DNA from: Lycium barbarum | Lineage: Eukaryota > Streptophyta > Magnoliopsida > Solanales > Solanaceae | Length of the DNA stretch: 64,000 nucleotides | NCBI RefSeq assembly: GCF_019175385.1 | Contig: NC_083346.1 | Coordinates: 54,217,821 to 54,281,820 of the forward strand | Direction of reading: 5' to 3' | Shown: one piece after another, positions 6,213 through 53,461 of the stretch | How the letters are laid out: every line of letters starts with the position of its first letter | Numbering within the stretch: position 1 is the first letter of the stretch | The notes under the pieces: generated by a model | What the model was told of the DNA's origin: nothing | Databases searched by the model: none | The model's input: only the letters and a program-made list of their open reading frames with translations | Made by a program: the position numbers and the translations under genes

Positions 6213-6399
6213 CACTGCAAACACAATAGCGAGTCAGATCAAAATCATCCAAATAGCACAGCTCTATCGCACGATCTAAGATTCCAAAGAAAGTAACATC
6301 CTAAATGCCCTGTAGCTTCCTGTTTATAGATGTGGTGCACAACACATCGATAAACAAGACTCTACGAGACACGGCCTTTAGACATTCCGAGGACAAACC
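6213..6399 (-). other. 5' leader of element A between primer site and gag
   Basis: Non-coding. It aligns over most of its length with the leaders of B (13245-13438), D (33524-33714) and FG (49890-50041, minus). Shared words include TAGAGTCTTG, GGGCATTTAGGA and ATCGTGCGATAGAGC. It contains the hairpin at 6322-6355. Conservation without coding potential suggests a packaging or dimerisation region. Confidence 0.8.
6322..6355 (-). ncRNA. Leader hairpin with self-complementary loop (dimer-initiation-like), element A
   Basis: The minus strand reads arm GTTTATCGATGTG, loop TTGTGCAC, arm CACATCTATAAAC. Twelve of 13 positions pair. The last six loop bases, GTGCAC, are a palindrome. The same 13-8-13 layout occurs in B, D and FG with different but compensating bases. 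By analogy with retroviral dimer-initiation loops, two genomic RNAs could kiss through this loop; the function is inferred. Confidence 0.7.
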
Positions 6400-6411
6400 G
6401 CTCTGATACCA
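6400..6411 (-). other. Primer binding site of element A (tRNA-iMet)
   Basis: The minus strand reads TGGTATCAGAGC, complementary to the 3' end of plant initiator methionine tRNA. It lies four bases (AAAG) after the LTR end, as in B and D. Confidence 0.92.
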
Positions 6412-10984: not shown

Positions 10985-11340
10985 TCGTATATTGCAAAAT
11001 ACGGACCGTAAAGTGCAATACGGTCCGTAAACTGGCAGTCGTAAACTGCCATGCAAAAGCTTCAGCTTTCTGCCAGTGGTCGTAAACTGCAAATACGGAC
11101 CGTAAACTGGTATACGGTCCGTAAACTGCCAGGTCATAAACTGGCATACCAAACTTCAACTTTCTGCCAGCTGAGGAAGAGGTATGATACGACCTGGTGG
11201 ACGGACCGTAAAGTGATTTACGGCCCGTAAACCATTGTCGTAAATCACCATGCATGCAGGCCAAAGTTTCTGGTTCTGCTTAAGCTTAAAAACGACCATG
11301 AGGGATGGTCCGTAAACTGAAATACGGACCGTAAACCTCC
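10985..11340. promoter_or_regulatory. Array of TACGGACCGTAAACTG-type boxes in U3 of LTR B
   Basis: About a dozen copies or half-copies of TACGGnCCGTAAA (n = A, T or C), often followed by CTG, separated by runs such as CAGTGGTCGTAAACTGC. The core TACGGACCGTA is almost self-complementary. The 3' LTR has the same array at about 18512-18860. It lies 170-530 bp from the LTR start. Confidence 0.7.
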
Positions 11341-12924: not shown

Positions 12925-13232
12925 ATGTGATATGTTATACTCTTAGAGGCTCGTAGACGTATGGGTGTGTGGGTAGATGTGTTTGGCCTTGTCGGCCTAT
13001 GTTTTGTATATCCTTTTGTCGGCCACGTTGGCCCATGTACATTGATGTGGCATAAATGCCTATGATGATATAAATGTGCGGTTGTCCATATGGGACTAGT
13101 TGACGAATCAATGGAAATGCATGTATAATTATGTGGCTCACCTAGATGTAAGTATAAGAGTAAGCTATGAGGGTGCTTGGGTGGGTTAGCACCGGGTGCT
13201 CGTCGCGGCCCCGAGTCGGGTCGTGACAAAAG

Positions 13233-13244
13233 TGGTATCAGAGC
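13233..13244 (+). other. Primer binding site of element B (tRNA-iMet)
   Basis: TGGTATCAGAGC four bases (AAAG) after the LTR end, complementary to the 3' end of initiator tRNA-Met. Confidence 0.93.
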
Positions 13245-13290
13245 AGTTCAGTCCTAGGATGTGTCTACGAGCCGTGTCTAGTAGAGTCTT

Positions 13291-13324
13291 GGTTATGGGT
13301 GTGTTGCGCGCCACACTTATAAAC
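13291..13324 (+). ncRNA. Leader hairpin with self-complementary loop (dimer-initiation-like), element B
   Basis: Arm GGTTATGGGTGTG, loop TTGCGCGC, arm CACACTTATAAAC. Twelve of 13 positions pair, counting two G-U pairs. The loop ends in the palindrome GCGCGC. It sits 47 bases after the primer site and about 115 bases before gag. Confidence 0.7.
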
Positions 13325-13438
13325 GAGAAGCTGCGGACATCTTAGGAATATATGACCTTCTTTCTTCATAAGAATCGTGCGATAGAGCTATGATGTAAGA
13401 AATTCTTGTTCTTAAACCGTGTGTTGTGTATTTCAGAG

Positions 13439-13717
13439 ATGCCTAAAAAGAAAAAGGCTACAGCAGCCCAAAAGGGCAAGACGGTGGCAGAAAAGCGGGC
13501 TGAAAGAGCACCGCCACCGGTAGTAGAGGAAGATGAGTCCCAGAATGCGGCTCAATCTCAGTCCTCCCAGACAGTGCCTATTACTGAGGAGCACGTGGGA
13601 GCCTCAGCCCCAGCTCCAGCTCCTCCACCGAATGCTTCAGGCCAAGATGTGAGAGAGGCCATTAATTTGTTGACTCAGTTGGTTGCGGCCCAGACGCAGA
13701 GGCCAAAAGCAGGGTAA
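13439..13717 (+). CDS. Gag N-terminal segment, element B
   Basis: 92 codons from ATG 13439 to TAA 13715. Basic start (MPKKKKATAAQKGK), a Glu/Pro/Ala-rich low-complexity middle and the conserved helix REAINLLTQLVAAQTQR. This is the disordered N-terminus of Gag, before the capsid-like domain. The stop sits where the related frame in D has codons continuing into GDR. Confidence 0.85.
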   Translation: MPKKKKATAAQKGKTVAEKRAERAPPPVVEEDESQNAAQSQSSQTVPITEEHVGASAPAPAPPPNASGQDVREAINLLTQLVAAQTQRPKAG

Positions 13718-18048: not shown

Positions 18049-18324
18049 GAAGCAGAAGAGAATATGCGATCCAAATACCCACATTTATTTCAGCCCTTGG
18101 AAGAAGTCCAAGATGAGACGTCAAAATCATAAGGTATGCATGTTTTCCTTTTATACATTCAGGTCGTGTGCGGCCAAATTTCTAGTGCTGTTGTATTATT
18201 GCCCTGTGAGGCATTGTTATTCTGGGTTGTTGTGACAGGGTGGTAGTGCCACATTACAAAGGAAACTCTGGCAAAAATTTTATAGAATTCCCCAAGCCTT
18301 TAACATTCGAGGACGAATGTTCCT

Positions 18325-18337: not shown

Positions 18338-20211
18338 TGTTACACCTCGGAAAAAATTTCCCGTTGGTACGCAAGTAAATGAACTAATGAGGTGTGCGAG
18401 GAGTGCGAGTGTATAATGTTTCATGGGAAATGTATGTAAAGGTATGTGGATGATTAGAATGAAAAGTCGAGAAATGAGAAAAATTGAAAGTTGGCAAAAC
18501 TGCCCAGTGGTCGTATATTGAAAAATACGGACCGTAAAGTACAATACGGTCCGTAAACTGGCAGTCGTAAACTGCCATGCAAAAGCTTCAGCTTTCTGCC
18601 AGTGGTCGTAAAGTGCAAATACGGACCGTAAACTGGTATACGGTCCGTAAACTGCTAGGTCGTAAACTGGCATACCAAACTTCAACTTTCTGCCAGCTGA
18701 GGAAGAGGTATGATGCGACCTGGTGGACGGACCGTAAAGTGATTTACGACCCGTAAACCATGGTCGTAAATCACCAAGCATGCAGGCCAAAGTTTCTGGT
18801 TCTGCTTAAGCTTAAAAACGACCACTAGGGACGGTCCGTAAACTAAAATACGGACCGTAAACCTCCATGGACGACCACTGTTCACCCAGCACAGATTTTT
18901 CAATTCATTAAATATGAGGATCAAGACTTGTATTATTTCATTTACAACATTACACCACTTCTCTCTAGAACTTCCCTCTACATTTATTTTATGAGTTTTC
19001 AAGGATTATAAGTCATCCATAACATTAAGACAAGTAAATCAAGGATAAGGGAATCATCAAGGATCACCCAAGTCAAGAAATCCAAATAGAGAAAAACTAG
19101 GGTTTTGCTCAAATAAGAGTATTATCAACCAAAGCTTGTTCCTACAACTTCTAAGGTAAGATTCATGATTTTTACAAGATGTTTGAGGTATTGGAGAATT
19201 AAAATACATGGATTGTAGAAAATGTGGTCAACTAGGTCATGAATGATGAATAGTGACATTTTGAGAAATAGTTTGAATTGAGTTATGAATGTTGTTGTTT
19301 TGTGATATGAATGTGTTATAAAAGGTATTAAGATCATGAACTAAACACTCTAGACGAATGGACGAAGATGGGTGTTATAATCATGAATGTGGGTGAATTA
19401 GAGGCAAATTGAGGAATTCTAGATAATGTGGATAATGTGAATGACTAATGGCCATTGTTATGATATTAATGAAGGTATAAACGCTAGCATTGGAAGGGAA
19501 CGTGCAAGCATAGAATAGTTCGATGGAAAGGTATGTAAGGCTAACCCTTCTTTCATAAGGCATGGTTCTTGGCCAAATTCCTAAATTCCTCTATATGAGT
19601 ATGTTGTCTTCACATGGTTGACATTCCGAGCTCATAAGCTCACGACCCTTGATATGTACTATTCTTATACTACGTTCCTCGTATGACGAGTAAGTCTATA
19701 ATGTAAATGTAACGATAATGATGAGGATAGTAATGATGATGAGAGAAAAATGAGACTAGAGATGCTTACGAGCTACGATATGTGTGTATGTGTGCCTATG
19801 AAGGGCTATAATAAGACCCCGAGCTTATGATGCCGGGTAAGACTATCTTTTGTGTACTCATTCTTTTGTGTATATAATTATGGGCATAGCGGGGTCCTGT
19901 CCCGCTAATGTGATATGTTATACTCTTAGAGGCTCGTAGACGTATGGGTGTGTGGGTAGATGTGTTTGGCCTTGTCGGCCTATGTTTTGTATATCATTTT
20001 GTCGGCCACGTTGGCCCATGTACATTGATGTGGCATAAATGCCTATGATGATATAAATGTTTGGTTGTCCATATGGGACTAGTTGACGAATCAATGGAAA
20101 TGCATGTATAATTATGTGGCTCACCTAGATGTAAGTATAAGAGTAAGCTAAGAGGGTGCTCGGGTGGGTTAGCACCGGGTGCTCGTCGCGGCCCCGAGTC
20201 GGGTCGTGACA
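18338..20211 (+). repeat. 3' LTR of element B (1874 bp, internal deletion)
   Basis: Matches 10812-13228 from both ends but lacks about 543 bp, equivalent to roughly 12320-12863 of the 5' LTR. The junction is at GACTAT|CTTTTGTG (19846/19847), with TAT at both edges. The lost piece held the CAGTAC hairpin. It keeps the GTCCTGT stem-loop at 19887-19907. Confidence 0.92.
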
Positions 20212-22493: not shown

Positions 22494-24857
22494 TGTTACA
22501 CCTCACACTTTCAGAGCATGATCATGCTACACACTACACGTATTAATGGAGTATCGGAGACGCCCCATGATATTTTGGAAGGTACAACCCATGGGAAGTA
22601 CGTAACAATAAAGTAAAGGATGAATTATTATCTTGTAAGTCGTAACCGAGAAGAACAACCTTGGAACCAATTATTAATGACAAATATCATATATGGAGAG
22701 TTTCAGAAGATTCCGGGACCAAGAAAATTGAAGAAAATAAGTTTGTCGAAAATTTAGAAAAACGTTGGCAGAATTTTGGGTCAACTTTGGAGGGGTATAT
22801 CTCTAGGTATATTAGGAGTTTTAAGGTGTTTCAAAATGTTAAAATGAATTTCATAGAGTCTAGTTTCCAACTCAACAAACCGCTCGTCAAAACGACTTCG
22901 GAGTAAGGAGATATAACCATTTTAAGATAACCCATCCAAGCTGTCAAATGGCTTTCGCGGGTCCCACTTGGGAAAGTCGGTGGTATAAAAACCCCCCATC
23001 AACCCCATGTTTTCATCATTATAAACACTCATGAGTCGTAGAAACTTCTTAACACATCCCCCAAACATTTATAGCCCATTAAATCAAGAATATAATAAGA
23101 TTACACCAAACTAGTCCATGAAAGGTGATTGTTCTTGCTTCCTCTTGATGTTGTGGTGAGTTTGGCCTTGAAGAAAGTTGGTGTGGCTAAAGTTCTTCAA
23201 GTATAAGGTATGTTCTTCATCCTATCTATCATGTTGAGTTGATTTGAAGGTTTAGCAAGTCTTAAAAGTGAAAATAGTTATGGAGGAAAGGTCATAAAGT
23301 GTTGTGTTGTAGTTGTAGAGTTTATGGACTGTTTTGAGCATGTTGTGGCTGTGTGGTTGTCTGTTTTCCATGTATACGGATAGTATCTAATGTTGTTGGT
23401 GTGTTGATGAAATTATACTCCTTGATTGGGAAGAAAGGAAGTGTATATTGTTGTTGTATGTTGAAAAACATCGTGTGGGATGTTTTATGGAATATTTTGG
23501 TATTGATGATGATGTTCTTGATATTAGTATTGCTATTGTTGTTATTTTGTTAGTATTCTGATTTCGGGCAAAGGATATAAACAGAGGAGATGTTGCCCGA
23601 ATTTCGACAGATTCTAAAGGGGTTAATTTGAAGGCTTAAGATAAGCATATGACGATAAGCCTAAAAATAATATGAATTCTCTTGAATGTAGATTTACGAG
23701 CTTGGGAGGATAAGCATTAAATAGTTAAGGTTAAGGCGACTGAAACGGTATGTTAAGGCTAGCCCCTTTCTTTCAAAAGGCATGATTCCTATGTTATGAT
23801 TCCATATATGTTTCCGTAACCTCCTTACTTCCAAAAGTTAGAAGTTCATGATTCTTAAAAGCTTCTTATGATAATAAAAGATGAGATGTTTTCTATGATG
23901 AGCATGATGATGATGATTTTAATTCTAGAAATTCCAAAGCTTATGATTTTAATTTTATTATGAGATTATTGAGATTATTTCATGATTTCCTTGATTTTAT
24001 TCATTATTGTTGATCTCACCTCATAATAATTGTTCCTTCAAGGTGAGATATAGAGATGATGATTATTCCATAATATAATCGGATGTTACCGACCTTACAT
24101 AACTCCGATTGAGTTGTAGCTTTTAATTGAGCTCTCATGCATGCTTATTTTTATGTATGATTACACCGGGCCTAATTGGTTGGGCAGACACCACTACGGT
24201 GAGCTTGAGTGATTACCCCGGACACAGGAGGCCCAGACGCGGGCTTATGATTATGTTATATATGTATGAGAATTTTTTTTTTAAAAGAAATCCAAGCATG
24301 CATGGTATCCGCCTTATGAGGCAATCAGATGTACAGGTTATCTTTATCTCATGTTATGTTCTATATTTCTTATTATGTTGTTCTTCATGCCTTACATACT
24401 CAGTATATTATTCGTACTGACGTCCTTTCTTGTGGACGCTACATTCATGCCTGCAGGCAGACAGTTACATGAATCTGACCCGTAGGTGATTTATCAGCGG
24501 ATTCTCAGGAACACTCCACTTACTTCGGAGCTGCAGTCTATTGGTATTAGTCCTTATGGTGACTTTTATTTTATGTAGAGGCTCGTACACATGTGTGTAT
24601 AGTTAGTCATTTCATAACCCTACCGGCTCATATCATTGTATAACCTTTTAGTAGCCATGTCGGCTGGTAATGATGGACATAATTGTTGAAGATTATATAG
24701 AGATATGCCGTTATATTGTGATATATGTCCTTACAGATTATGATATCCAGGAGCTATCTTTATGGTCCACCCAGAAATGTTTATGAGATGTATGTTTAGA
24801 GGTGCTCAGTGTGTTAGCTCCGGGTACTCGTCATGGCCCTCTGGTTGGGTCATGACA
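22494..24857 (+). repeat. LTR E (3' LTR, 2364 bp)
   Basis: TGTTACACCTCAC to GGGTCATGACA. It has a good TATA box (GGTATAAAAACC, 22983-22994), donor-like ATAAG|GTATGT at 23207/23208, a second donor-like GGTATGTTAAGGCTAGCCCC near 23749, and the CAGTAT...GTACTG hairpin at 24401-24419. It is preceded by a polypurine tract, so it is a 3' LTR. The right flank GAAGG (24858-24862) is the expected target duplication. It differs too much from LTR C, especially in U3, to be its partner. Confidence 0.8.
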
Positions 24858-33511: not shown

Positions 33512-33523
33512 TGCTATCAGAGC
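33512..33523 (+). other. Primer binding site of element D (one mismatch)
   Basis: TGCTATCAGAGC, one base off the iMet site TGGTATCAGAGC, four bases (AAAG) after the LTR end. Confidence 0.88.
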
Positions 33524-33568
33524 AGTTCGTCCTAGAGTGTGTCTACAAGCTATGTCCAGTAGAGTCTT

Positions 33569-33602
33569 GTTTATGGGTGTGAAGTACACCACACTTATAA
33601 GC
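33569..33602 (+). ncRNA. Leader hairpin (dimer-initiation-like), element D
   Basis: Arm GTTTATGGGTGTG, loop AAGTACAC, arm CACACTTATAAGC. All 13 positions pair if three G-U pairs are allowed. The loop core GTACAC is one step from a six-base palindrome; only GTAC is self-complementary. Position matches A, B and FG. Confidence 0.6.
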
Positions 33603-33830
33603 AAGAGGCTGTGGGCATTTAGGAATGATTAACCTTGTTGTTCATAATAGATCGTGCGATAGAGACATGATATATGAATTTCCCTGTTCCTAACGGTGTG
33701 TTATGTTTTCAGTAATGCCTGTAAAGAGAAAAGCTACAGCAGTCCAGAAGGGCAAGTGAGTGGCAGGAAGGAGAATTGAGAGGGTACCGCTGATAAATAT
33801 ATAGGAGGGTGAGTCTCATAATGAGGTTCC

Positions 33831-44434: not shown

Positions 44435-47400
44435 TGTCACACCCCGACCTTACTAGGGTGTGATGGGCACCCGACCCCATATCTGGAGCCGAGCGAACCC
44501 GCTGACTCTTATTACATAAATAAACTCTGGAATCAATTCAGAGTAAAATGCATAGTAAGCTCTCAAAATTTTTTTTTTTTTTGGAGAGTGTATCATCATA
44601 TGGAACGCGTGACATGAAACGTAATAACATATTGACAGGCGAAGCCGTCTACAAAGCTGACGCTCTATACCCACGACTCTGTCTGCAAATTCTCTAACTG
44701 CAATCGGAAACCATGGCACATATACACTGACTCGGCTACACTCCCGGGCTAACTGGAGCTCGCCAACTTCGCTGGAACATCTTCTATAAGGGCCTCAACT
44801 CATCTGGGTGTACCTGCGCGGCATGAAACGCAGCCCCCGAAGAAGAGGGGTCAGTACGAGCAATGTACTGAGTATGTAAGGCATGAACGACAATACAAGG
44901 AGAGGTACCAGTGGAGATAATCACAAAGGAATCATATGGCATCTCATATGGAACATATCATGTCATACCATATCGTGTCATATCATATCATGTCATATCA
45001 TGTTATATCGTATCATATCATGTCATATCATAGCATATCATGTCGTATCATATCATATCATGTCATATCATATCATATCGTATCCTGTCGTATCATATCA
45101 TATCATGTCATATCATATCATATCATAGGGAGTCATATAGCGTATCATAGGCTGATTGAGATACCTGTACATATGAATGCCACTTAGGGAAGAAACCATG
45201 CATGCTTATCGGGTCATATCATATCATAGCACCGAACAAGTCGGCTCACCCACATTGCGTCGAAATATGTCAGCTCGCCCATATATCCCGCGTCCGGGCA
45301 TCCCGCGTCCGGGATGATAATGCCAGCTGACCAGGTGGCGATGAAATATGTGTCCCTTCCCCATATCCCCATATACATGTATCCCTTCCCCCCTCCCATA
45401 TACATATATAGCATGCATGAGAGCCCAAGGAAAGTCATGTGTCTATCGGAGTGACGTAAGGTCGGTAACCTCCGATTGTATTATGGAATCATCATAGTCG
45501 TCATGTCACGCCTTGAAGGAACAATTATAAGGCGAGACTATCACTGAAGAACATTATCTCGGGAAAACATAAAATAGGATCATAACATATTACTTCATAT
45601 ACTTTAAAACCTTAAAATAGTCATTATCCAAAAGTAGCTTAACATTTCATATCGTCGTATTCATGGTAAGAACATATCCTTGGCATATTCGTCATAGACA
45701 CATTCTCATGTCTGGCTTCATTATTGTCATCATAACTCCGTAGTCGTTGTTTTAGTTATAAAAACATTCAAAAACGTAAAACTTGGATTTTGGAGAAAAA
45801 TGTATATTTTGGAAAACATTTATAACTTTTGGAAAGGAAATCATGGTTTGAATTCATAACTTCTAGCTTTTGAAAACAAGGACGTTATGGTGAACATTTA
45901 TAAGACTACATCATAGGATTCATGCCATAGAAAGAAAAGGGCTTAGCCTTAACATACCTGCGCCGCGCCTTACTAGCTACGCTTATTCGTCCAACTTGTT
46001 AATCTACATTCAAAGGAGTTCACACATTCGTTAGATCCTTTGTCATATACTTGCCTTAACCTTTCAAACACATTCATTTATATTCTGCCGAAATTTCGGC
46101 AGCATCTCCCTTGTAAATACACCACCCCCGAGATTCTAACTCGGCCAAATTTAACAACAACAATCCGAGAATGGAACTCGGCCAAACCAACAACAATATT
46201 AGCAATGCATTCTAGCAACATTCCAACATTTAATTCAATTCAATTCACATAATCTTTCAACGACTCAATCCACATATTACTTTGCCCGAAACCGTCCAAT
46301 TCAACAACAACCATGCATGTCATCATCATTCATGTATGCTAACTTCAACAACGACCTCCATTCTTCATCACATAATCCATAACAACGACAACTAGAATGT
46401 CAAATAACATCAATTTACCTTAGCTTACCAAAACGCCTATTATTTGACCATAACCACTTCCTACATATTTTCATGCATTTTCATCCATCTTTTCTATATA
46501 TTACAACAACAAACAACATACTTCATATAATTAATCCAATCCTCTCACACAACACAACACATATACATGGCCAACACTACTCCATACGGCTTCCATTCCA
46601 ACATATTATATTCATGGTTTTTCATTCATTTTACATTATGGATTTCACCATACAACAATTAAACTTCTAAATAAAATCATTTCATCTTGTCTACACAATA
46701 CTACACATATTCGGCCATACAACAACATTATACACATCTTTATGAATTTCACCCATTTCTTGACATTACAATCACAACCAACATACTAAATACTCTTAAT
46801 CCATTATTCCTACACAACACACCACATGCACCACACGACCACATCTCTATATGCATGTTTTCATGTTTTTCATCCCTTTTACATTATAGAATTCATAACA
46901 CAACAATCAAATTACTAAATAATATTAATTCATCATTTCAGTCCAACACCACATATATTCGGCCAACATACAACTCACCACAACTTCATTAACTTCCTTC
47001 ATCTACACACTCCACAACATATACAATCATCTATAACATATGAAAATAAGGTTTAAACCTTACCTTAGCACTAGTTCCTTTTCCAGGCTAGAACCTCATT
47101 TTTGCGAAACGAATGATTCACTTGTTCCAACGAATACTCCACGTTGTAGAGAACCTTCCACTTAGTATAAAAGCTTGAAAGAAATAATTTTTCTTGATCA
47201 AATCTCCCATGGCCATGCTTGGCCATACCTTGGCCGAACCCTCTCTCTTTCTTTCCCTTTTTTTTTTTGTTGTTCTTTCTTTCTCTCTAATTTAATTATG
47301 AAGACCTCTTATGTATATATATATATAGGTCTTCCATCACTTATCCATATTTGCAATTTAGTCCCCCAATTATGGTCACATGCCCCATTTCTTTCTTTTC

Positions 47401-47838
47401 TTGAATTCTCTCCCTTTTTCTTGATGTTTCTTTTCTTTTCTTGATTTTTCCTCACTTGGTCAAAGAAGACCAAGTGTCTTCTTTCATACACTTTAGTCCA
47501 TCTATATTTACACTTTGCCCCCTTCACATATAAAATGGCCACATGCTCCTTTCTTTACTTACTTACTTATTTATTTATTTATTTTTATTTTTTCTAGAAT
47601 TTTCTTGAACTTTGTGAAATTACCATTTTACCCCTAGCCTTCCATAATATCACCATGGTTCTATTTTGCGAATTTCCTTTTTCGCCCTCAACCTTTCTTA
47701 ATATTTCCATAATACTAATGTTGTGAATAATATTTATAACCCACTTGTTCATTGAAATACATTTGGAAGATGGACATTCCCTTAACTTCGTTACGACTGC
47801 CTTGGAATATCCGAACGTATAAAATACGGGATATAACA
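44435..47838 (-). repeat. 3' LTR of element FG (3404 bp)
   Basis: TGTCACACCCCGACC at 44435 (minus-strand end) to GGGATATAACA at 47838 (minus-strand start). Holds a donor-like GCTAAG|GTAAGG at 47064/47063 (minus), a second donor-like CAGGTATGTTAAGGCTAAG near 45945-45960, the CAGTAC hairpin 44852-44870 and a CATAT/CATGT satellite. The GC-rich repeat CCCGCGTCCGGG occurs twice near 45287-45313. Confidence 0.93.
44944..45127. repeat. Degenerate TCATA/TCATG pentamer satellite in LTR
   Basis: About 180 bp of ATCATATCATGTC-type repeats, period 5 with a loose 10-base higher order. It recurs at 50560-50743 in the other LTR with few changes. The His/Ile/Ser-rich open frames over it are artefacts of the repeat. 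Confidence 0.9.
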
Positions 47839-47853
47839 TCCTCCCCCCCTTTA
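47839..47853 (-). other. Polypurine tract of element FG
   Basis: The minus strand reads AAAGGGGGGGAGGA directly before the 3' LTR start TGTTATATCCCG, after CATTCGAGGACGAATGTTCT (minus). Confidence 0.88.
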
Positions 47854-49889
47854 GAACATTCGTCCTCGAATGTTCAACCGATCTTATGGGGTGTCATAAT
47901 ACTTCGGGAGGATCTCTTTTGTGGTCGTCCTTTCCTTCATGCTCACTCGTTATCCTTTACCTTATTTCTTTTATAATCGTACTTCTCGGTTTTTTTTTTT
48001 TTTACATGAATCTTCTTCCCGTGTCATGGGTTTTCTAATTTGTTGAGCCAACGTATTATCCTTGTCTTTCTCCGATCGTCTCTTTTCTGTTACTGTTTCG
48101 TGACCATATCTTAACAAAAGCCACACCTTTAGATTCTTACTACAACTCTTCTTTAGTCTCTTTTCGTGTCTCTCGATACAGGTATACTTGTCTTTGACTT
48201 CATGTGGTGGTGCTCATTTCGTTCATCGTTATTCCTTGTAAGCCTAATATGGCCTCCCCCCCCCCCCCCCCTTTAAGGGGTCCCTTATATGCCAATAGGC
48301 CTTTCACTTGCTTAGCTCTCTTGCTCGTAATTCTTCCTTGACTACGTGTTCGTATTGTAGCTGTGCATCCATATTTCTTAAGCGTTCTGCTACTTTTTCT
48401 CTCAGCACAGAACCCTTACAACTTTCACTCTCCCTATCCTTTTCTATCCAACCTCTAGGCATATTACTATAGCTACATACTTGTCTTTTTTTTTTTTTTT
48501 TTTCTTTTTTTTTTTTTTTTACAGATCTTTCACCTCAACACCATCACCATCCTGAGCATTCTTTCCCTTACTTCACATTCCTCTACCCTGGTCACTATTC
48601 TCTTAGACCTACTTGTTGAAATCAACTCTCAACCTCCACACATTTCTCCTTGTTTCCTTTTACCTCACTCTATCTCCTCTCACATGCCTACTTGAATTTT
48701 CATCCTAATGGTCTCGTACTTTTACCATCAATTTCTCGCGGGGGTTTCACCCACTAAGGTTTTCTTAACTTTCACTTTTTCCAATATTTAAGCTTTCTAT
48801 CTTTCATTTACTCACTCTCTTTCTTTTTTCCGAGTATCGTTATACTAGAATTTCCAACCTCAACCTATAGTAAAATAATAACAGCTCACTCGCAGCACTT
48901 GTACCATTTACTCTCGCTATTACTCGGGATTCGATTTCCTTTACTATATTAACGCCTTTTATACCGTAGCTTCGGTTGCTGGAAATCACATGCCCACCGA
49001 TACAATCATATATGGGACACGCTACACCTTTATACTTATATATATATATTTTTACTATCAACTAGCCCACAACTTACTTCCAAACGCTGTTCAAGCCTAG
49101 CCTAATTCCAGGGCTATGATGCATTTTCTGTCTCTTTACCGAGCTAGTCTGCCTCGTCCTACGCGTCTTCCTATGGTCTCCACCCATCCCGTATATCCTA
49201 GTTTTCCTTAGACTACCCTAGCTTTTCATTTGTCCCTTATGTCTCAATTTATAGAATTTCTTGCCAACTTCCCAGGGGGTCACCCATCATGAAATTGCTC
49301 CCACCTGAGCACGCTTAACCCAAAAGCTTCACTGAAATTCGGTGCCTTAATGCCGATATTTTCGCGTCCGCTTCTTCACATGACCTTTATTACATGTTTT
49401 GGAGCGAGTCGAGGTTTCACAGGCTTCAAGGCACTTTCATAACGCGTCCTTCTTTCACAATTACGGTTTTACCCTTTTGGTTCCCGATGTTCATCTTCCG
49501 CCTGTGTGTATGGCTACCTCCTGTCCTGGACTTCCAGATTCCCGATGATAGCGACCCCACCTTTGTCGCCACGTCCAAATCCATAACCTTTCTGAACCAA
49601 CACATTTCACTTATTGCCTATTTACAGTATTTCCTTTCCATGCTTCCTCCTGTGGGGCGTACCCGTCCTGGCCGAACCTCCTTTACCGTTCCTACTATTC
49701 AAAATCTGTATGCGGCCAATGTCATCAATGCCTCATAAAACGTACGACTACATGGCACATCCCCGCCATCCAGTACTTCCAGTTCAGGTAACAGAACAAT
49801 TATGTCAGGACTTACCTCTATAAGCTTCCACAGCCTCTTTGGCTTCCTTTCGTTGTACGTATAGCTCGTATGGGGAAATCTTATTCCTT
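47854..49889. other. Non-coding interior of element FG
   Basis: About 2 kb, pyrimidine-rich on the plus strand, with a C run at 48257-48271 and T runs at 48487-48520. No gag or pol motif in either direction. It contains one 5S rRNA-like block (49264-49320). Small ORFs such as 49394-49738 show no family marks. Confidence 0.7.
49264..49320 (-). ncRNA. 5S rRNA-derived block (3' half, including box C) in FG interior
   Basis: The minus strand contains GTTAAGCGTGCTCAGG, then GATGGGTGACCCCCTGGGAA. Plant 5S rRNA has GTTAAGCGTGCTTGGG and GATGGGTGACCTCCTGGGAA at the same spacing. The middle (GTGGGAGCAATTTCAT) is diverged. It covers roughly 5S positions 57-110, the internal control region. The 5' third is not seen, so it is not a 5S gene. 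Confidence 0.65.
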
Positions 49890-49960
49890 ATGACTTAGCT
49901 CTATCGCACGATTTAAGATTGAAAGAAGGTCAACAATTCCTAAATGCCCCGCAGCCTCCT

Positions 49961-49994
49961 GTTTAAAAATGTGGCCGGCTTCACACTCATAAAC
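49961..49994 (-). ncRNA. Leader hairpin with self-complementary loop (dimer-initiation-like), element FG
   Basis: Minus strand: arm GTTTATGAGTGTG, loop AAGCCGGC, arm CACATTTTTAAAC. Twelve of 13 positions pair with G-U allowed. The loop ends in the palindrome GCCGGC. It lies inside a leader (49890-50041) that aligns with those of A, B and D. Confidence 0.7.
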
Positions 49995-50041
49995 ATGACT
50001 CTACTGGCCACGACTTTGCAGACAACCCCTTAGACCGACCT

Positions 50042-50053
50042 GCTCTGATACCA
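50042..50053 (-). other. Primer binding site of element FG (tRNA-iMet)
   Basis: The minus strand reads TGGTATCAGAGC, three bases after the LTR end. Same primer as A and B. Confidence 0.92.
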
Positions 50054-50056
50054 CTT

Positions 50057-53000
50057 TGTCACACCCCGACCTTACTAGGGTGTGATGGGCACCCGACACC
50101 ATATCTGGAGCCGAGCGAACCCGCTGACTCTTATTACATAAATAAACTCTGGAATCAATTCAGAGTAAAATGCATAGTAAGCTCTCAATTTTTTTTTTGG
50201 AGAGTGTATCATCATATGGAACGCGTGACATGAAACGTAATAACATATTGACAGGCGAAGCCATCTACAAAGCTGACGCTCTATACCCACGACTCTGTCT
50301 GCAAAGTCTCTAACTGCAATCGGAAACCATGGCACATATACACTGACCCGGCTACACTCCCGGGCTAACTGGAGCTCGCCAACTTCGCTGGAACATCTTC
50401 TATAAGGGCCTCTGCTCATCTGGGTGTACCTGCGCGGCATGAAACGCAGCCCCCGAAGAAGAGGGGTCAGTACGAGCAATGTACTGAGTATGTAAGGCAT
50501 GAACGACAATACAAGGAGAGGTACCAGTGGAGATAATCACAAAGGAATCATATGGCATCTCATATGGAACATATCATGTCATACCATATCGTGTCATATC
50601 ATATCATGTCATATCATGTCATATCGTATCATATCATGTCATATCATAGCATATCATGTCGTATCATATCATATCATGTCATATCATATCATATCGTATC
50701 CTGTCGTATCATATCATATCATGTCATATCATATCATATCATAGGGAGTCATATAGCGTATCATAGGCTGATTGAGATACCTGTACATATGAATGCCACT
50801 TAGGGCAGAAACCATGCATGCTTATCGGGTCATATCATATCATAGCACCGAACAAGTCGGCTCACCCACATTGCGCCGAAATATGTCGGCTCGCCCATAT
50901 ATCCCGCGTCCGGGCATCCCGCGTCCGGGATGATAATGCCAGCTGACCAGGTGGCGATGAAACATGTGTCCCTTCCCCATATCCCCATATACATGTATCC
51001 CTTCCCCCCTCCCATATACATATATAGCATGCATGAGAGCCCAAGGAAAGTCATGTGTCTATCGGAGTGACGTAAGGTCGGTAACCTCCGATTGTATTAT
51101 GGAATCATCATAGTCGTCATGTCACGCCTTGAAGGAACAATTATAAGGCGAGACTATCACTGAAGAACATTATCTCGGGAAAACATAAAACAGGATCATA
51201 ACATATTACTTCATATACTTTAAAACCTTCAAAATAGTCATTATCCAAAAGTAGCTTAACATTTCATATCGTCGTATTCATGGTAAGAAGATATCCTTGG
51301 CATATTCATCATAGACACTTTCTCATGTCTGGCTTTATTATTGTCATCATAACTCCGTAGTCGTTGTTTTAGTTATAAAAACATTCAAAAACGTAAAACT
51401 TGGATTTTGGAGAAAAATGTATATTTTGGAAAACATTTATAACTTTTGGAAAGGAAATCATGGTTTGAATTCATAACTTCTATCTTTTGAAAACAAGGAC
51501 GTTATGGGGAACATTTATAAGACTACATCATAGGATTCATGCCATAGAAAGAAAAGGGCTTAGCCTTAACATACCTGCGCCGCGCCTTACTAGCTACGCT
51601 TATTCGTCCAACTTGTTAATCTACATTCAAAGGAGTTCACACATTCGTTAGATCCTTTGTCATATACTTGCCTTAACCTTTCAAACACATTCATTTATAT
51701 TCTGCCGAAATTTCGGCAGCATCTCCCCTGTAAATACACCACCCCCGAGATTCTAACTCGGCCAAATTTAACAACAACAATCCGAGAATGGAACTCGGCC
51801 AAACCAACAACAATATTAGCAATGCATTCTAGCAACATTCCAACATTTAATTCAATTCAATTCACATAATCTTTCAACGACTCAATCCACATATTACTTT
51901 GCCCGAAACCGTCCAATTCAACAACAACCATGCATGTCATCATCATTCATGTATGCTAACTTCAACAATGACCTCCATTCTTCATCACATAATCCATAAC
52001 AACGACAACTAGAATGTCAAATAACATCAATTTACCTTAGCTTACCAAAACGCCTATTATTTGACCATAACCACTTCCTACATATTTTCATGCATTTTCA
52101 TCCATCTTTTCTATATATTACAACAACAAACAACATACTTCATATAATTATTCCAATCCTCTCACACAACACAACACATATACATGGCCAACACTACTCC
52201 ATACGGCTACCATTCCAACATATTATATTCATGGTTTTTCATTCATTTTACATTATGGATTTCACCATACAACAATTAAACTTCTAAATAAAATCATTTC
52301 ATCATGTCTACACAATACTACACATATTCGGCCATACAACAACATTATACACATCTTTATGAATTTCACCCATTTCTTGACATTACAATCACAACCAACA
52401 TACTAAATACTCTTAATCCATTCTTCCTACACAACACACCACATGCACCACACGGCCACATCTCTATATGCATGTTTTCATGTTTTTCATCCCTTTTACG
52501 TTATAGAATTCATAACACAACAATCAAATTACTAAATAATATTAATTCATCATTTCAGTCCAACACCACATATATTCGGCCAACATACAACTCACCACAA
52601 CTTCATGAACTTCCTTCATCTACACACTCCACAATATACACAATCATCTATAACATATGAAAATAAGGTTTAAACCTTACCTTAGCACTAGTTCCTTTTC
52701 CCGGCTAGAACCTCATTTTTGCGAAACGAATGATTCACTTGTTCCAACGAATACTCCACGTTGTAGAGAACCTTCCACTTAGTATAGAAGCTTGAAAGAA
52801 ATAATTTTTCTTGATCAAATCTCCCATGGCCATGCTTGGCCATACCTTGGCCGAACCCTCTCTCTTTCTTTCCCTTTTTTTTTTTTGTTGTTCTTTCTTT
52901 CTCTCTAATTTAATTATGAAGACCTCTTATGTATATATATATATATATAGGTCTTCCATCACTTATCCATATTTGCAATTTAGTCCCCCAATTATGGTCA

Positions 53001-53461
53001 CATGCCCCATTTCTTTCTTTTCTAGAATTCTCTCCCTTTTTCTTGATGTTTCTTTTCTTTTCTTGATTTTTCCTCACTTTGTCAAAGAAGACCAAGTGTC
53101 TTCTTTCATACACTTTAATCCATCTATATTTACACTTTGCCCCCTTCACATATAAAATGGCCACATGCTCCTTTCTTTACTTACTTACTTATTTTTTTTA
53201 TTTATTTTTATTTTTTCTAGAATTTTCTTGAACTTTGTGAAATTACCATTTTACCCCTAGCCTTCCATAATATCACCATGGTTCTATTTTGCGAATTTCC
53301 TTTTTCGCCCTCAACCTTTCTTAATATTTCCATAATACTAATGTTGTGAATAATATTTATAACCCACTTGTTCATTGAAATACATTTGGAAGATGGTCAT
53401 TCCCTTAACTTTGTTACGACTGCTTTGGAATATCCGAACGTATAAAATACGGGATATAACA
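50057..53461 (-). repeat. 5' LTR of element FG (3405 bp)
   Basis: Nearly identical to 44435-47838, differing in a few substitutions and small T-run or TA-run lengths. On the minus strand: TATA-rich TATATATATATATACATAAG (about 52930-52950), donor-like GCTAAG|GTAAGG at 52681/52680, a second donor-like CAGGTATGTTAAGGCTAAG near 51562-51577 and the CAGTAC hairpin 50468-50486. Confidence 0.93.

Follow-up and report, generated by a model that had tools for sequence, protein, structure and literature searches.

In HIV-1, the dimer-initiation site (DIS) is located between the primer-binding site (PBS) and gag. Its palindrome, of which GCGCGC and GTGCAC are known forms, sits in a 9-nt loop with flanking purines on both sides, and one unpaired purine lies 3' of it. 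Passages of PMC5874298 and PMC8096270 describe the retroviral DIS in general as a hairpin whose apical loop contains a six-base palindrome that varies in its letters between viruses. For HIV-1 SL1, the same passages describe flanking purines and an internal loop under the palindrome that binds Gag/NC.

Both the mechanism of dimerisation and the idea of a pairing code are already known in kind, from the retroviral DIS and from the yeast elements Ty3 and Ty1. Ty3 dimerises in vitro via the palindrome PAL6 (nt 391-396), for which a kissing interaction has been proposed (available part of PMC11381356). For Ty1, loop-loop pairing of SL1a and SL3a has been proposed to start dimerisation, and the divergence of these loops between Ty1 and Ty2 has been proposed to hinder co-packaging (excerpts of PMC5454406); therefore, the idea that loops govern co-packaging is not new. 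In plants, the barley element BARE2 is unable to make Gag, keeps its dimerisation and packaging signals, and enters BARE1 particles (passages of PMC3735527).

The window, i.e., the whole 64,000-nt stretch of DNA analysed here, contains four LTR elements with a recognisable leader, A and FG on the minus strand and B and D on the plus strand; a fifth leader was not found in the window. The hairpin in these leaders resembles HIV-1 SL1/DIS, as portrayed in the passages cited above, in its palindromic apical loop, the internal loop below it, and its leader position between PBS and gag. In contrast to HIV-1, the loop has 8 nt, with none unpaired 3' of the palindrome and two unpaired 5' of it, which are UU in A and B and AA in D and FG; the unpaired purines that flank the palindrome on both sides on a strict definition of HIV-1 SL1 are thus not found. 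The host is a plant, the element class is another one, and dimerisation is here predicted. The likeness to Ty3 PAL6 lies in the Ty3/gypsy class and in a GC-rich six-base palindrome that caps a short hairpin close to the 5' end; however, from its order among three palindromes in the available part of PMC11381356, PAL6 is counted in the GAG ORF and not in the leader. Ty1, as far as the excerpts describe it, differs in using two distinct loops with 7-nt complementary motifs and no single self-complementary loop. BARE2 is, in the cited passages, a plant retrotransposon depending on a helper, as is proposed for FG below, whereas BARE1 and BARE2 belong to the Copia superfamily.

Four elements, one without detectable coding capacity

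A and B show the RT-RNase H-integrase order, the gag and the PBS at the LTR that characterise Ty3/gypsy elements. Pfam domains of the A ORF are zinc knuckle, protease, RT, RNase H and integrase zinc-binding, and those of the B ORF are gag, RT, RNase H and integrase zinc-binding; the integrase core model stays below its curated cut-off in both. D encodes Ty3/gypsy proteins by tblastn. The elements can be placed only tentatively in the Tekay/Del chromovirus lineage, in which a chromodomain follows integrase. A Pfam chromodomain was absent from the A and B ORFs at E up to 1, both ORFs stopping before the full region is covered. Among the best 120 of 7959 scored relatives of the RT of A, PF00385 occurs in three (P0026, P0046, P0107), the top identity is 88% (including a Lycium barbarum entry), and the named proteins are from plants except one with a bacterial label. 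The latter, P0061, is a plant-type retrotransposon protein 87% identical to A that is filed under a Corynebacterium assembly, and is probably plant DNA contamination. The identities listed make a host of the nightshade family likely.

Distances between paired LTRs, over the stretches compared, are 0.011 for A, 0.011 for FG, 0.021 for B and 0.099 for D, whose LTRs are 83.4% identical by blastn. By LTR distance, D is an old copy and A, B and FG are young copies. The primer-binding sites are as follows.

6400-6411, minus strand: PBS of A
13233-13244, plus strand: PBS of B, TGGTATCAGAGC, an exact match just after the LTR end TGACA at 13228
33512-33523, plus strand: PBS of D, with one mismatch relative to the other three
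50042-50053, minus strand: PBS of FG

The site in B is presumably of the initiator-Met tRNA type. Several other features accompany the elements. A fragment at 23581-24549 is 71-76% similar to parts of the LTRs of FG and D and to sequence flanking B; it has no leader of its own and is perhaps a solo LTR or remnant. The LTRs of B (10998-11231, 18524-18757) contain three hairpins each around inverted repeats resembling TACGGTCCGTA/TACGGACCGTA. Directly 5' of the polypurine tract of B, a short hairpin (ACATTCG-AGGA-CGAATGT, 18303-18320) is present, and the same sequence occurs at the 3' internal end of FG and nearly the same at that of A. Finally, TTTCAG or TTGCAG, resembling a 3' splice site, stands 2 bases 5' of the gag ATG in A, B and D (13430-13441 in B) and is not present in FG. 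If it were used, the gag mRNA could drop the hairpin described below and the genomic RNA could retain it.

44435-53461, minus strand: non-autonomous element FG (LTRs 44435-47838 and 50057-53461; 5-bp duplication AAAAG)

FG has LTRs that are 98.5% identical, a perfect AAAAG target duplication, a PBS and a purine tract. Its internal part (47839-50056) gave no tblastn match to five gag-pol protein pieces of A and B, and its open stretches reach at most 80 aa on the sense strand and 139 aa on the antisense strand. Judged against these five protein pieces, FG is a non-autonomous LTR element of the LARD type. Between its LTRs, FG aligns to A, B and D in the leader only (blastn, E 1e-20, >150 nt), with 76-77% identity over 173-192 nt. 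Thus an element with no detectable proteins retains the PBS, a hairpin with its own intact palindrome, and the box ATCGTGCGATAGAG; such retention is what would be expected of signals read in trans by the Gag of another element.

The box is identical in all four leaders and lies 46-49 nt 3' of the apical hairpin.

6262-6275, minus strand: invariant box ATCGTGCGATAGAG of A
13374-13387, plus strand: invariant box ATCGTGCGATAGAG of B
33651-33664, plus strand: invariant box ATCGTGCGATAGAG of D
49899-49912, minus strand: invariant box ATCGTGCGATAGAG of FG

Its 10-mer core is self-complementary in all four, with two central U.G pairs. The box is a candidate second cis signal, acting either as a second dimer contact or as a Gag site; because its sequence never varies, the core is uninformative on dimerisation.

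The leader hairpin and its loop palindrome

A hairpin with an 8-base loop, claimed for the four leaders in a preliminary description of this DNA, was recovered at all four places. It lies in the transcript-sense 5' leader between PBS and gag (at the equivalent position in FG, which has no gag), and its apical part starts 44-47 nt 3' of the PBS match. In the following list, paired positions are standard pairs, G-U included.

6322-6355, minus strand: apical hairpin of A (13+8+13; 12 of 13 positions paired)
13291-13324, plus strand: apical hairpin of B (13+8+13; 12 of 13 paired; -11.3 kcal/mol)
33569-33602, plus strand: apical hairpin of D (13+8+13; 13 of 13 positions paired)
49961-49994, minus strand: apical hairpin of FG (13+8+13; 12 of 13 positions paired)
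6312-6365, minus strand: complete hairpin of A
13281-13334, plus strand: complete hairpin of B (4 bp, 2x2 purine internal loop, 17 stem positions, 8-nt loop)
33559-33612, plus strand: complete hairpin of D, the old copy
49951-50004, minus strand: complete hairpin of FG

The stem was said to be of exactly 13 positions; these do pair as listed, but the stem continues beyond them. The full structure has 17 stem positions, then a 2x2 internal loop made of purines only (AG opposite AG or GG), and then four more pairs, all 16 cells of which are paired across the four leaders. For A, B and FG, the predicted 121-nt fold includes this lower stem. In the 121-nt fold of D the lower arms are paired otherwise, and the isolated 54-mer of D folds with three of the four lowest pairs. 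The complete hairpin of B scores 78.3 bits with model R1, for which B is a training sequence.

Relative to 200 dinucleotide shuffles, the folding z of the 34-mer is -4.0 in A, -2.0 in B, -4.5 in D and -3.0 in FG, with 0, 7, 0 and 0 shuffles, respectively, at least as good; the 34-mer of B is thus only modestly stable. For 121 nt, z is -3.7, -2.3 and -4.1 in A, B and D (0, 6 and 0 of 200 shuffles as good), and the leader of FG is unremarkable (z -0.97; 35 of 200). Within leaders of 209-218 nt, the formable stem pairs have probabilities of 0.81-1.00, one pair of B having 0.38. The sense strand folds better than the antisense strand in all four, though two elements lie on each strand: -23.2 versus -19.3 kcal/mol in A, -22.7 versus -9.8 in B, -25.0 versus -14.1 in D, and -18.0 versus -8.3 in FG.

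It had further been claimed that stem bases change in pairs. Paired changes do occur, at two of the 13 positions between some two sequences, but the covariation score of the apical stem is reached by 134 of 500 shuffles. Therefore, stem covariation is weak evidence and no independent proof. A separate stem is present at the 3' end of the LTR, just 5' of the PBS (13202-13227 in B, with equivalents in A, D and FG); it has 39 of 40 cells paired and two double changes. A set of 31 pairs that includes this LTR-end stem is 96.0% formed, falling to 35.5-53.7% when partners are slid by 1-3 columns, and its covariation score is reached by 14 of 500 shuffles. Much of this covariation is due to the LTR-end stem: of three pairs that have changed on both sides, it holds two.

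The loop is better evidence than the stem covariation. The 8-base loops are TTGTGCAC in A, TTGCGCGC in B, AAGTACAC in D and AAGCCGGC in FG, and, as previously described, their last six bases are self-complementary in three of the four, with differing sequences.

6335-6340, minus strand: loop palindrome GTGCAC of A
13306-13311, plus strand: loop palindrome GCGCGC of B
33584-33589, plus strand: loop hexamer GTACAC of D, not self-complementary
49974-49979, minus strand: loop palindrome GCCGGC of FG

Among 178 gap-free six-base windows of the leader alignment, the loop is the sole hexamer that is palindromic in at least three of the four leaders, and it has four different letter strings in them. 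No other window has as many Watson-Crick self-pairs (11 of 12 in the loop; the runner-up has 10 of 12 and no paired change), and of the three nested pairs of the loop, two have changed on both sides. The paired percentage and the covariation score are reached by 19 of 500 shuffles; two of the five measures of the loop are not unusual, namely the number of pairs changed on both sides (102 of 500) and further pair types (358 of 500). Among background hairpins with this geometry (11 or more of 13 pairs; AT microsatellites excluded), 1 of 62 carries a palindrome in that register and 4 of 62 carry one in any register, against 3 of 4 leaders. At other cut-offs, the frequency in that register is 1 of 13 (12 pairs), 2 of 186 (10 pairs) and 9 of 403 (9 pairs).

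When neutral drift from an ancestral palindrome was simulated on a star tree (eight settings of divergence, 2,000,000 trials for each), at least three different palindromes arose with a probability of 2.0e-5 to 7.4e-4, or around 2e-3 when corrected arithmetically for three registers; the palindrome, register and loop size were noticed post hoc, and the simulation was run after the data had been seen. The palindrome is perfect in the young copies A, B and FG (LTR distance 0.011-0.021) and broken in the old copy D (0.099). Across these four elements the link to age is suggestive, palindrome and PBS being intact in the young copies and both altered in D, and it is plausible that D lost its palindrome through decay.

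Probable loop-to-loop pairing and the alternatives

Perfect full-length complements of the loops were searched for in a transcript region of about 1.7 kb that begins 200 nt upstream of the PBS and ends 1.5 kb downstream of the PBS start. For A, B and FG, no perfect complement other than the loop itself was found in this range, and the loop of D has one perfect partner, at nt 911 from the PBS start. A full-length intramolecular partner within about 1.7 kb is thus unlikely for A, B and FG, as far as their sequences tell, which leaves a second molecule as the partner.

The preliminary description proposed that these elements dimerise their genomic RNA by a kissing loop. The PBS-proximal place, the sense-strand stem, the changing palindromes, the lack of another partner and the retention in FG argue for this proposal, whereas the stem covariation, which is not significant, adds little to it. 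Judging from the four sequences, the hairpin is probably the element with which this plant Ty3/gypsy group initiates dimerisation of its genomic RNA. In that RNA, the long stem between the primer site and gag would display the six-base loop palindrome, and two RNAs of the same family would pair loop to loop. After this contact, the stems would probably exchange strands to give a longer duplex, and the paired RNAs would be packaged together. The purine internal loop and the box ATCGTGCGATAGAG are candidate sites for Gag/nucleocapsid, to which Gag may bind.

An explanation in which the conserved stem acts by itself, as a Gag-binding packaging signal or as an export or translation element with a palindrome that is a coincidence or side effect, is unlikely but deserves serious weight. 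Invariant columns make up 70% and 58% of the stem arms (columns 96-122 and 131-156) and 25% of the loop, so conservation of the stem far exceeds that of the loop; the purine internal loop is conserved as well; and dimerisation does not follow from the stem pairs by themselves. However, a loop that was free to vary should lose its palindromy as its letters change. Pairing of the loop elsewhere in the same RNA, as a pseudoknot or long-range contact, has a precedent among retroelement leaders in the Ty1 pseudoknot (excerpts of PMC5454406), yet it is very improbable here, the loops of A, B and FG being their own sole perfect complements over the range searched.

Still slighter is the chance of a feature of the DNA, i.e., a cruciform or protein site rather than an RNA element. 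A perfect palindrome in RNA is a palindrome in DNA too, but G-U pairs, which form in the transcript strand only, account for 1 (A), 4 (B), 5 (D) and 3 (FG) of the 21 pairs, and this reading is weakened as well by the better folding of the sense strand in all four elements. There is equally little to be said for a neutral relic, in which an ancestral hairpin drifts and three palindromes arise by luck. The leaders are indeed related (mean column identity of 77% over 280 columns of the four-way alignment), but simulated drift gives a probability of at most 7.4e-4, and the hairpin is kept in FG, which has no detectable coding capacity.

If the hairpin is a dimer-initiation element, its loop type could, as the preliminary description suggested, set which families are co-packaged. 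Hexamer self-duplexes are predicted at -7.9 (A), -10.9 (B), -11.7 (FG) and -5.0 kcal/mol (D, partial), and mixed duplexes at -6.6 (A-B), -5.0 (A-D), -2.8 (B-FG), -2.2 (A-FG), -0.6 (B-D) and +0.6 kcal/mol (D-FG). These energies set FG well apart but hardly separate A from B. That the loop is a fast-changing pairing code, in which families, including a non-autonomous one, switch between self-complementary six-mers by paired changes, is put forward as a tentative and rather doubtful extension. If true, each family would mainly dimerise with itself, and the extent to which neighbours in the genome recombine with it or parasitise it would be limited.

Relatives and meaning for plant Ty3/gypsy elements

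No Rfam family reached its gathering threshold in the window. In viral_contigs, ATCGTGCGATAGAG occurs in 100 stretches, none of which has the leader of A, B, D and FG; its sole PBS-like neighbour there is a chance match with one mismatch. A pattern of PBS plus GTAGAGTC had no match in viral_contigs and seven in genome_contigs, all bacterial and with no hairpin by eye. AAGTGGTATCAGAGC is found in 62 stretches of viral_contigs. The 169 pattern-matched stretches contain no relative of the five A and B protein pieces (tblastn, E 1e-3), and the sole survivor of a loose leader filter, L160, is by eye not the leader of A, B, D and FG. The 1206-aa ORF of A has no relative in viral_contigs, and the RT region of B has no match in plasmids or phages. 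The letters CGTGCGATAGAG were not found in the open-access literature searched, and that literature, which excludes most subscription papers, yielded no account of a hairpin of this type in the leaders of plant Ty3/gypsy elements.

According to the abstract of PMC12786077, the share of LTR retrotransposons reaches 90% in some plant genomes. The main text of this 2025 review of the life cycle of plant LTR retrotransposons, in the part available, does not contain 'dimeri', 'palindrom' or 'packaging signal', and how RNA pairs of these elements are selected is hardly known. The reading favoured here, dimer initiation by the hairpin, would mean that the leader of a plant Ty3/gypsy group contains a dimer signal like that of retroviruses. 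The hairpin is small and its palindrome readable, so it would then offer a cis marker for scoring many copies in a genome. Such a marker would link non-autonomous elements to their helpers, and would make co-packaging and recombination between families predictable and testable.
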